From Tannerellaceae bacterium (GTDB taxonomy: Bacteria > Bacteroidota > Bacteroidia > Bacteroidales > Tannerellaceae), in the NCBI GenBank assembly GCA_021204405.1, contig JAJPZJ010000122.1, positions 1 through 39,291 on the forward strand: a stretch of DNA of 39,291 nt, read 5' to 3'. The notes below the pieces were generated by a model. The model was given only the letters and a program-made list of their open reading frames with translations. It made no database searches and was not told the DNA's origin. Positions 9,521 to 13,323 of this stretch are shown piece after piece. Position 1 is the stretch's first letter; the number at the start of each line of letters is the position of its first letter. The translations under genes and the position numbers were made by a program.

Positions 9521-10213
9521 TTATGGAAGAAGAGAGATCATATCCCATAAAGTAGTTGCCGTATAGAAGCGGGTATCGACTATGGGTTCGTCTACTTTTT
9601 CATGCAGCCATTCGATAGGGTAAGGGATATGTACGGCATAGCAGCCCAATTGCAACGGAGGAAGGATATCGGAACGCAGGGAGTTTCCTACCATCAGGAA
9701 TTGACCGGGCAGGATATCGAGGTGACTAAGGAGTTTCTGATAGTCGGCCGGTTTCTTATCGCTCATAATTTCTACATGATGGAAGAGATGCTCCAGCCCT
9801 GAGACCCGGAGTTTGCGTTCCTGGTCAAGCAGGTCGCCCTTGGTTACCAGAATCAGGCGGTAACGGCCTACCAGGGCATTTAATACCTCTTCTGCACCTT
9901 CCAGCAGTTCCACCGGTTTGGAGAGTTGTTCTTTACCTGCCTCTACCAGTTTTTGCAGGATAGCCGGGGGAAGTTGCCCGGACGTAATGCGTAAAGCTGT
10001 TTCCAGTACCGATAAGATAAAAGCCTTTACGCCGTAGCCGTACAGAGGCATATTCTGCATCTCGGTACGGTACAGCTCTTCGAGGGCGGTGGTACTGTTG
10101 GTATAGGGAGCAAGCAGTTCGCAGAAATACTGCTCTGTTTGCCGGAAATAGAGTTCATTTACCCAGAGGGTATCATCTGCATCAAACCCGACTACTTCTA
10201 CTTGCTCTATCAT
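9521..10213 (-). CDS. HAD-superfamily hydrolase
   Basis: This is a cytoplasmic haloacid-dehalogenase-type phosphatase of 230 residues. Motif I is FDADDT, with the nucleophile D11 and general acid D13. Motif II is the threonine in LILVTKGD, motif III the lysine in MSDKKPADY, and motif IV appears as MVGNSLRSD. A helical C1-type cap lies between motifs I and II. The substrate cannot be inferred. Its start is 15 bases after the stop of the PNGase F-like gene, so the two are probably co-transcribed. Confidence 0.9.
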   Translation of the reverse strand: MIEQVEVVGFDADDTLWVNELYFRQTEQYFCELLAPYTNSTTALEELYRTEMQNMPLYGYGVKAFILSVLETALRITSGQLPPAILQKLVEAGKEQLSKPVELLEGAEEVLNALVGRYRLILVTKGDLLDQERKLRVSGLEHLFHHVEIMSDKKPADYQKLLSHLDILPGQFLMVGNSLRSDILPPLQLGCYAVHIPYPIEWLHEKVDEPIVDTRFYTATTLWDMISLLP

Positions 10214-10228
10214 ATCTCTGTACCGGCT

Positions 10229-11471
10229 TTATTCTTCCCACACCAGATAGGCAGATACCAGCCAGTGGTTCATTTCATGGCCATCGACAGGCTGGGCTTC
10301 GGGTATACTTACTTTGAAGGTATGTTTACCCGGTTGGATCTGTAAGGTTACCTCTTCAGGGATCACATCCGAACCCGGGCACCAGTTGGAGCGGGACAGA
10401 TCGGAAGAGGCATAGGGTTCTTCCACTATTTTTTCTTTATAGCCTTCACGGGTAATATAGGAAGCGAGGCGCTCTTTCAGCCATACGCCGGTAGCGGGGT
10501 TGAAGCGGCGGAAGGTGGCACAGTCGTTACGCCAGGAGATAAAGTTGCTAACTTCGCGGCCATCTATTGAAACAATGTTTTGTTTTTTTTACAAACTCAT
10601 CGCCGGCGGCATGTCCGCCATGCCCGGTAGTAATGTATTTCAGGCGTACGTTTTTAGCATTTACCGGTACGGTAAAGTCTACGGAGACATCTTTCTGCGA
10701 GAAAATATCGGGGTATTCCTGTCCGATGTAGTACACGGTGTTCATTAAGGGTTCTACATGCCGGCGGGGCAATGGGTCGCAGGCTAACTTAGATTCTTCG
10801 AAATCCAGTTTCATACTGGCTGTATATCCTTCAGTAGTCCATGTATCGATAAAAATACCGACATAAGCTTCGCCTTCCAATAAGGAGTAAAGGTCTGTTA
10901 TATCTTGTTCCCATTTTACATATTGTGCCCATTCGTCGATATAATTGGGTTTGCGTTTGCTGCTCAGGCTATCTGTATCAGAACTATAGAATCCCACGCC
11001 GAAAGGAGTTATGAAACGCATCAGTTCAATGGTAGGCTGGTAACCTGCGTCAGGTACAATGCCACGCATATTTTCCAATAGGGTTGAGTCGATCGCGGGA
11101 AATACGGCTTTTTCCTGTGCGATTGTCAACAGATTGACTGCTGATTGTTTGGGTAAGACAAAGCAGGAACCTGATTTATCCCAACGGTCGCCGGCGGAGG
11201 CAACCTGTACAGTTAGTTCAACTTTTACGTTTCTGCTATACGCAGGTGTTTCTATCTTTTTCAGGATGATCCGTCCGTTGGTGAGCCGGATCACTCCGTC
11301 GGCAGCCGGTTCGTTGTAGCTACCGGGATAGTCTTCGGAACTAAAACGCACCGGGGTGTTGTCGAATACCTGGACACTGTAATTGCCCAGTACAGGTAAT
11401 TGGGCATAGCTATTCCATGTAATAGTAAGGAACAGGGAGATGAAAGCGATTAAGTTGTTTTTAAAAAGCAT
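10229..11471 (-). pseudogene. PNGase F-like peptide-N-glycosidase, frameshifted in an A8 tract
   Basis: This is a secreted or periplasmic peptide:N-glycosidase F-type protein, which would release N-glycans from glycoproteins. A signal peptide ends near SYA at residue 23. The N-terminal frame (10548-11471, 307 residues) has DRWDKSG (D98, aligning with PNGase F D60), [13 protein letters not shown] and [11 protein letters not shown] (E292, aligning with E206). It then runs out of frame after residue 296 (VKK). An eight-A tract at 10583-10590 has one base too many: with seven, the protein continues [11 protein letters not shown]..., passes [13 protein letters not shown] and RSNWCPG, and ends at 10229 as a full 413-residue protein. 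No stop interrupts either half. It could be a fresh pseudogene, a phase-variable or slippage-decoded gene, or a sequencing error. Confidence 0.88.
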
Positions 11472-11474
11472 GTG

Positions 11475-12914
11475 TTATTTGAAATTAGTTAATTGTTTGA
11501 TCAGTAGTTTTTGTCCCGCGGCTTTATCTCCGTGCACACAAGGGCCGGTAACACAACCTCCCTCACAGGCCATCACTTCGATAAACTGTGCCGGTGTTTT
11601 TCCTGTTTTGGCGTAGGCACGTAACAGGGCAACATTCTTTTTAGTCAGGTTAGCCACCTGTACGGCGTTTATCTCTTTATCTTTGAGATATACTTTAACG
11701 GCATTTACTACTCCGCCGGTCTGTGCAAAGCCGTGGGCTTCGCGGGAGGAGTTAAAGAGTACGGAGTAGGGTTTGGTTTCTTCCAGCCGGATATCCATTC
11801 CTGAGAGTACGGAGGCAATTTCTTCGAAGGTCATGGCATAGTCGACAGCCGGGTCGATCCGTACCTCTTTCCGCTTGGCTACACACGGACCTATAAATAC
11901 GATTTTGGCATTGGGGTATTTCTCTTTTACGATACGTACCGTATAATACATAGGCGAACCGGTAGAAGAGATATACTTTTTGAGGTTGGGGATATGTTTT
12001 TCGGCTAATTGCATGTAGGAAGGGCAGCAACTTGTTGTCATAAAGGGCTGACCTTCTTCCAGTTTTTCCAATAGTTCCTGCGCTTCGTGCCGGGTAGTTT
12101 CCATCGCTCCCTGCGCAACTTCCACTACATCTGTAAATCCAAGTTCTTTCAGGGCACCATATACATTCTCCACCGGTGCACTGAATTGCGCCAGGATAGA
12201 AGGAGCAACAATAGCCACTACGGTTTCTTTACGTTTGATGGATTGCAGGATATCAAATACTTCCGAAATCTCGAAGATGGCTCCGAAAGGGCAGGCGTTG
12301 ATACATTTGCCACAGTAGATACATTTGGATTCGTCTATATGTTCTATACCATCTTCCTCTTTACTGATTGCCTTTACAGGGCAGACCTCTTCGCAGGGAA
12401 TAGGGATATAGACAATGGCATAGTAGGGACAGTTTTGCTGGCATTTACCGCATCCGATACAGGTTTCATGATCGATCTTTGCCTGTCCGTTCTTTTTAAA
12501 ACTGATACATTCTTTCGGGCAGTTCATATAACAACTCCGGGCAACGCATCCACGGCACAGGTTGGTGACTTCGTAGTTGACCTGTACACAGGAGGAACAG
12601 GCTTCGTCGATAACGCACATCAGGTTATCTTTTTGTTCTCCGTTCCGCTCTAATGCACGCCGGGCATAGGCAGACAGCGGGGTGAGCTCGTCTATCTCAT
12701 CCTCCATATCAAACCCCAGCAAAGGAAAGGTTTTATATTTCCAAACTGCACGCTCTTTATGAACACAGCAACGGCCAATCACTTTTGATTTTCTTGGGCT
12801 CAGTTCAATGGGCAATCGGTCTATTTGTTCAACGAGGCGCTCTTCTTTCCAAAGTTTTACTAATCTCGCTAGCAATCCGTGGCGTACGATCATTACATTG
12901 TTAGTAAATGCCAT
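11475..12914 (-). CDS. Group B-type monomeric [FeFe]-hydrogenase
   Basis: This 479-residue iron-sulfur protein should interconvert protons and H2 in the cytoplasm, probably with ferredoxin. The H-cluster motifs are TSCCP at 294-298 (L1), GPCVAKRKE at 342-350 (L2) and MACEGGC at 448-454 (L3), followed by GPC rather than the GGGQP of group A enzymes. That points to the group B form common in anaerobes. The N-terminal half has ferredoxin-type cysteine sets at 120-132, 152-162 (CIGCGKCQQNC) and 198-208 (CIYCGKCINAC), plus extra cysteines at 106, 109, 174 and 178. The H-cluster maturases HydE, HydF and HydG are not in this window and must be elsewhere if the enzyme is active. It follows folB by 46 bases and precedes the PNGase-like gene by three. 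Confidence 0.93.
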   Translation of the reverse strand: MAFTNNVMIVRHGLLARLVKLWKEERLVEQIDRLPIELSPRKSKVIGRCCVHKERAVWKYKTFPLLGFDMEDEIDELTPLSAYARRALERNGEQKDNLMCVIDEACSSCVQVNYEVTNLCRGCVARSCYMNCPKECISFKKNGQAKIDHETCIGCGKCQQNCPYYAIVYIPIPCEEVCPVKAISKEEDGIEHIDESKCIYCGKCINACPFGAIFEISEVFDILQSIKRKETVVAIVAPSILAQFSAPVENVYGALKELGFTDVVEVAQGAMETTRHEAQELLEKLEEGQPFMTTSCCPSYMQLAEKHIPNLKKYISSTGSPMYYTVRIVKEKYPNAKIVFIGPCVAKRKEVRIDPAVDYAMTFEEIASVLSGMDIRLEETKPYSVLFNSSREAHGFAQTGGVVNAVKVYLKDKEINAVQVANLTKKNVALLRAYAKTGKTPAQFIEVMACEGGCVTGPCVHGDKAAGQKLLIKQLTNFK

Positions 12915-12960: not shown

Positions 12961-13323
12961 TTAGTTATATATTTCACTCAGAATAATGGCGGCCGATTGA
13001 ATATCACCTCCGAACGGCGGATTTTGTTTGGCCAGCTTAATTTCGCAGGCAAGTAATTGAGGGAAGTTTTTTTTCAGGGCAGTTAAGATACGGCCTGCTA
13101 CATATTCAAGGAGGTTGGAGGGTATATCCATTTCTTTCTTCACTACGGCGTATATTTCTGCATAGTTAAGGGTGTCGGCCAGGTCGTCACTTTGAACAGC
13201 TTTGTTTAATGGGGCAGTCAGAAGCAGATCGACAGTGAAGGTATTCCCCACTTTTCTCTCTTGTGGAAATACCCCGTGGTAGGTGTAGAACTGCATTCCT
13301 TTCAACTCTATTTTAGTTATCAT
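12961..13323 (-). CDS. folB: Dihydroneopterin aldolase
   Basis: FolB converts 7,8-dihydroneopterin to 6-hydroxymethyl-dihydropterin and glycolaldehyde in folate synthesis. The 120-residue protein begins MITKIELKGMQFYTYHGVFPQE, with the family pattern of a first strand followed by the YHGV.P.E substrate loop. It also has the TLNYAEIY segment and the C-terminal KQNPPFGGD. The open frame runs on to 13680, but that extension lies antisense to the bactofilin gene and is not real. The start at 13323 is supported by a strong promoter just upstream. Confidence 0.95.
   Translation of the reverse strand: MITKIELKGMQFYTYHGVFPQERKVGNTFTVDLLLTAPLNKAVQSDDLADTLNYAEIYAVVKKEMDIPSNLLEYVAGRILTALKKNFPQLLACEIKLAKQNPPFGGDIQSAAIILSEIYN

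Follow-up and report, generated by a model that had tools for sequence, protein, structure and literature searches.

The PNGase F-like gene of this Tannerellaceae bacterium is split by one extra base in a run of eight As, which breaks the frame. Our best explanation, which we hold with somewhat better than even confidence, is that the gene was recently inactivated by replication slippage in a lineage whose assembly shows many broken genes, including mutS. We infer that the breaks are present in the living genome and not merely in its assembly, and the source lineage is probably short of mismatch repair. The window, that is, the whole stretch of 39,291 nucleotides that was analysed, is one contig of an assembly with 184 contigs and 3.45 Mb (95.4% complete, 0.5% contamination).

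The frame break in the PNGase F-like gene

The gene and its two neighbours are located on the reverse strand of the window, with the following features:

9521..10213, reverse strand: HAD-type hydrolase, the downstream neighbour, which starts 15 bases past the PNGase stop
10229..10231, reverse strand: TAA that closes the 3′ piece of the PNGase F-like gene
10232..10582, reverse strand: 3′ piece of the PNGase F-like gene, 117 codons in another frame, with the rest of the C-terminal domain including the WCPG region
10583..10590, reverse strand: A8 run on the coding strand (T8 on the forward strand), the site of the frame break
10551..11471, reverse strand: 5′ piece of the PNGase F-like gene, 307 codons, with the ATG at 11471 and the stop at 10550-10548
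11475..12914, reverse strand: monomeric [FeFe] hydrogenase (TIGR04105), the upstream neighbour, whose end is 3 bases away from the PNGase start

A break in this A8 tract had been proposed in the sequence-only reading, and Pfam searches confirmed it, with pieces of the family in two frames on either side. The N-terminal domain of PNGase F (PF09112) was found at residues 33-224 of the 5′ piece and covers profile positions 2-177 of 177, scoring 208.2 bits against a curated cut-off of 22.4, which places the protein in the family. The C-terminal domain (PF09113) is divided: positions 1-48 of its 140-position profile match the 5′ piece and positions 46-140 the 3′ piece, and no single open frame contains the complete domain. 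The A8 run begins in codon 294 of the PNGase F-like frame, the one directly after the motif GDEF, and the final 11 codons of the 307-codon piece, past GDEFVKK, no longer follow the frame of the family. No further stop interrupts the 3′ piece before the TAA at 10231-10229, so the earlier claim that neither half carries a second stop is borne out. The length calculation is correct as well: the 1243 bases would correspond to 413 residues plus a stop if the frame were single.

The gene product is predicted to be an enzyme that removes sugar chains from proteins. The catalytic residues of PNGase F are D60 and E206; GDEF is present in the 5′ piece, and its glutamate may be the equivalent of E206, as proposed in the sequence-only reading. 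A PNGase profile of 27 sequences reaches 1pgs/1pnf only at an E value of about 0.9 and only over an earlier stretch, and does not align to them over GDEF. The 307-residue product, which is without most of the C-terminal domain, would presumably be inactive. A search of the assembly found a single copy of the gene, and neither the scan for promoters and terminators nor Rfam reported a feature on it.

A single-sequence scan for named relatives found none, whereas an alignment-based scan did find relatives. The comparison covered 93 PNGase loci of relatives, several of which duplicate one sequence. The locus of Parabacteroides acidifaciens (NZ_QREV01000002.1) has the same site codons and match figures as that of the same-family genome G013; Parabacteroides belongs to the listed genera of Tannerellaceae, which makes this the likely family of the source genome. 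A single open frame runs across the site in 91 of the 93 loci, and two loci (L016 and L017) gave none. The [FeFe] hydrogenase gene adjoins the PNGase gene in 15 and the HAD hydrolase gene lies near it in 11 of the 93 loci, some of which are too short to show both neighbours. Relatives thus carry intact orthologues, in part at the same genomic place, and measured against them the gene in the window is probably a pseudogene. A run of more than six As at the break site is absent from the 91 readable loci. Since six is the longest A run at this site in the relatives compared, all of them from outside the genus, the A8 tract is, judged by these sequences, particular to the source lineage.

The lack of conservation bears on the proposal of the sequence-only reading that the gene is subject to reversible phase variation, with the length of the A tract switching a secreted glycosidase on and off. 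A homopolymer break in an otherwise clean gene fits such a switch. An evolved homopolymer switch was nevertheless rejected because the tract is not conserved in the relatives; moreover, it comprises just eight As, and similar breaks are found in unrelated genes of the same assembly. The 120 listed PNGase proteins include the exact 307-residue truncated form (P0001), none of the other 119 is more than 71% identical to it, and a full-length form from this species is absent among them. Altogether, we regard reversible phase variation as very unlikely. Two of the listed proteins are C-terminal-only fragments, P0129 (151 residues, on 67 contigs) and P0131 (181 residues, on 48 contigs); the PNGase gene may be split in other lineages as well.

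The PNGase gene has a match in 9 of the 35 same-family genomes, and one of these matches is a fragment. In the same-family genome G021 (locus L016) a 66-residue remnant with two stops is located beside the same hydrogenase gene. This patchy presence suggests that the gene was under little selection. The part of the window gene behind the break is no more divergent than in intact relatives: the ratio of 3′ to 5′ divergence is 0.703 (rank 17 of 54), compared to 0.726 in the others (sd 0.043). In the 5′ half, 2 of 59 invariant columns carry a change unique to the window gene, and in the 3′ half 1 of 43 does. The 3′ part is without extra divergence, so either the break is young or the gene is still alive. 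Very recent inactivation, which had been one of the options offered from the sequence alone, is the one that survives.

A living gene would be expected if the break were overcome during expression. The motif A AAA AAA is a slippery heptamer of the classic kind, and programmed ribosomal frameshifting at the A-rich site could make use of it. A −1 shift would, however, enter a frame that stops after 8 codons, the 3′ piece is in a frame other than −1, and the site is not conserved in relatives. Programmed −1 frameshifting was rejected on the basis of this frame order, and we consider programmed ribosomal frameshifting of any kind at the site extremely improbable.

Transcriptional slippage on the A8 run, which would restore part of the PNGase protein in a gene still under selection, agrees better with the state of the gene: there is a single break, it is located in a run, and apart from it the gene is intact, with no other stop and no sign of decay behind the break. 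Slippage has been proposed for homopolymer frameshifts in Blochmannia and Buchnera, which provides a precedent, and the Blochmannia authors, in the excerpted text, consider a rescue possible where a single break lies in a run (PMC3017870). Here, however, a frame rescue requires an RNA that is one base shorter (or two bases longer), whereas insertions make up most of the transcription errors in A/T runs, and in Buchnera no restoring error was observed (PMC5574713, in excerpt). In addition, selection against slippage typically becomes apparent once runs reach nine bases (PMC1088944, in excerpt) and the run here has eight As, and the tract is not conserved in relatives. The slippage proposed in the sequence-only reading is therefore weak, and we give it little credence.

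Frame breaks across the assembly

We sampled 41 stretches of the same genome (512,210 bases, 404 kb coding) with a frame model that counts as a break a same-strand frame switch without an ATG near the upstream stop. Two relatives served as controls, the closed genome G009 (348 kb coding) and a draft, G015 (142 kb coding). Breaks account for 52 of the 171 same-strand frame switches in the own assembly (12.9 per 100 kb coding), for 1 of 75 in G009 (0.3 per 100 kb coding) and for 3 of 28 in G015 (2.1); these counts depend on the frame-switch penalty setting of a crude model, which includes among the 52 a site that resembles an ordinary gene boundary (L124:14762) and missed two breaks visible by eye (L107:16613 and L110:2903). 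In-frame stops without a following ATG make up 20 of 47 read-through stops, compared to 0 of 17 in G009 and 2 of 7 in G015. TAG is the stop codon in 14 of the 20 candidates.

The break in the PNGase F-like gene is one among many in the assembly, which indicates that it is no special switch. The description of a clean single lesion is true of the gene itself but does not distinguish it, since the assembly contains many similar breaks. These are found in unrelated genes and 28 of the 52 have no run of more than four bases nearby, which further weakens the reading as phase variation. The case is a warning that a frameshift in a homopolymer, however clean, calls for a look at the remainder of the genome before one speaks of a switch.

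The number of long A/T runs is ordinary (31 runs of at least 8 in 276,729 bases of the own genome). In this first sample 12 runs of at least 8 are located inside open frames. According to inspection and Pfam, five of these are at broken genes, encoding PNGase, a P-type ATPase, a hybrid two-component regulator, Cas9 and Cas1; another five are read in frame, among them the runs in folB (an A8 at 13067-13074 of the window, across which the frame is kept) and in a MgsA-type gene, and two are undecided. Breaks are concentrated at runs: 5 of the 52 have a run of at least 8 no more than 20 bases away (0.3 expected), 14 have a run of at least 7 within this distance (0.9 expected) and 24 a run of at least 5. 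Ten of the 14 breaks at runs of at least 7 are of the +1 type, and 10 of the 14 runs consist of A or T. Among the 28 breaks without a nearby run longer than four, 21 are of the other shift type; these 28 carry no mismatch-repair signature and could be due to error or ordinary decay.

Some further sites were observed in the sample. On L110, a contig of 3,568 bases, cas9 is broken twice, at an A8 and close to an A7, a further A8 is the site of the break in cas1, and a C12 run is located near the contig start. A broken rhamnosidase gene on L115 (about 936-1000) encodes the same short peptide in both frames, as if a segment had been duplicated at the break. Two G9 runs (L105:7429-7437 and L107:9869-9877) are candidates for length variation; one of them lies between genes, in a short stretch, and the other in a phosphoesterase gene that is read in frame.

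The main rival explanation is that the living PNGase gene is intact and that the low quality of the consensus, in an assembly that consists of 184 contigs, accounts for the extra A and for many other breaks as well. A very high density of breaks is seen in the own assembly only and not in the relatives, and 24 of the 52 breaks are close to a run of at least 5, as given above. Two of the genes hit, proB (broken at L105:19103) and mutS, are usually kept by free-living relatives. The 3′ piece of the PNGase gene is conserved like that of a living gene. Moreover, RpoB of the own genome has unique changes at 16 of 921 otherwise invariant columns, the most of 30 sequences (next 13 and 13; median 3), although this excess would fit relaxed selection or base errors alike.

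Several observations nevertheless favour decay over error. The same broken forms recur on other contigs. The truncated PNGase P0001 is found on two contigs, the longest of which has 8,365 bases, so that neither is the 39,291-base contig of the window, and the broken ProB form (P0227) recurs on seven contigs, the longest with 13,894 bases, although the contigs with P0001 and P0227 may stem from further assemblies of one and the same sample. An intact ProB at 94% identity exists as well (P0228), showing that a close relative keeps proB.

The lesions also depend on gene function. All 11 genes for tRNA synthetases and GroEL have long unbroken frames, where 3.99 lesions were expected (P for none 0.0185). 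If 11 core genes of the window are added, the expectation rises to 6.74 lesions (P 0.0012), but these genes were picked after they had been seen to be intact and were partly named by eye. In contrast, 5 of the 12 GH3 genes are broken and one, near a contig end, is unclear; the GH3 matches in six relatives are all unbroken (30 of 30, with frames of 739-1024 residues). Nonsense codons are raised together with indels. Short contigs have the same break rate as long ones (four length classes: 10.2, 9.0, 11.0 and 10.0 per 100 kb), and 5 of the 12 runs of 8-9 are read in frame, as described for folB and the MgsA-type gene. Taken together, this makes error as the source of the PNGase break unlikely, though still worth serious consideration. 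If the breaks were errors after all, the assembly would be unfit for claims about gene loss.

mutS and the proposed course of gene loss

Mismatch repair genes were inspected in the same assembly. The canonical mutS gene is split: TIGR01070 matches with positions 115-750 of 840 in one frame and with positions 749-840 in another, and a single full-length frame for this family was not found in the own genome. The break is located at a run of five Gs (locus L232, contig C143, about 11016-11026). The truncated MutS is presumably inactive. The gene for MutS2 (L233) is intact, and a third gene of the MutS family (L234) seems to be split into pieces of 473 and 181 codons. Loss of mutS would have preceded or accelerated the slips in the runs. 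The mutS break, however, sits in the same assembly and shares every doubt that applies to the other breaks, which counts against our explanation.

Recent inactivation in a decaying lineage would have proceeded in four steps. Selection would first have been relaxed, probably in a stable host-associated niche, a setting that is a guess; mismatch repair would then have decayed through mutS, homopolymer runs would have slipped, and accessory genes would have been lost one by one, the PNGase gene recently. If the breaks are real, the assembly represents a Tannerellaceae-like genome in mid-decay in which mutS itself is frame-broken, and sister strains could reveal the order of events from relaxed selection through loss of repair and slips to the disappearance of glycan-degrading genes.

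A broken mutS would also raise the rate of switching at the A8 tract, and according to the excerpted report on Pseudomonas mutators runs revert frequently in such strains (PMC4702332). A7 and A8 runs might then act as accidental switches in a genome with a broken mutS, with the PNGase gene and other accessory genes flickering on and off in the population. We consider this very unlikely. If it were true, a decaying mutator symbiont would gain contingency loci that no ancestor had selected.

Comparison with known systems

The closest known proteins are the PNGase F-like proteins of Bacteroides, 3ks7 and 4qhb. 3ks7, a solved protein annotated as 'Putative PNGase F', is matched by the 5′ piece at chain residues 5-280 and by the 3′ piece at residues 280-397. 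Unlike in these Bacteroides proteins, the frame in the window is split in the C-terminal domain. PNGF-II (4r4x) has a long extra N-terminal region (the match starts at chain residue 189), which the protein of the window does not have.

The pattern of the breaks can be compared with that of mismatch-repair-deficient Pseudomonas lines, in which, according to the excerpted report, each of the 108 indels fell in a single-nucleotide run and insertions were 3.32 times as frequent as deletions (PMC4702332). As in these MutS-deficient Pseudomonas aeruginosa lines, indels are concentrated at homopolymer runs here, and at the long runs +1 shifts are the more common type. In the Pseudomonas aeruginosa mutators, however, G:C runs dominate, whereas A or T makes up most of the long runs at breaks here (10 of 14), and roughly every second break here is located off runs, unlike in those lines.

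A homopolymer frameshift as the first step of gene loss in symbionts is of a known kind, and the PNGase case is new to the literature searched. As described in the excerpted accounts of Blochmannia (PMC3017870) and of the pseudogenes of Sodalis (PMC7067036), single indels in A/T runs appear here as first lesions, many pseudogenes are present, and core genes are kept. Unlike in these decaying symbionts, the genome is not small and AT-rich (3.45 Mb, 42% GC in the sample), the run at the PNGase break has 8 and not 9 or more bases, and host association is a guess here.

Within the family, Synergitannerella mixotrichae is an ectosymbiont of a termite-gut protist with a genome of 3.16 Mb and 100 listed pseudogenes, and its excerpted description reports no proline synthesis (PMC12483993); in the genome studied here proB is broken. 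Identity with Synergitannerella mixotrichae was rejected on the basis of GC content, which is 48.4% in that species (PMC12483993) and 41.8% in our sample. By analogy, a lifestyle similar to that of Synergitannerella mixotrichae is a fair guess.
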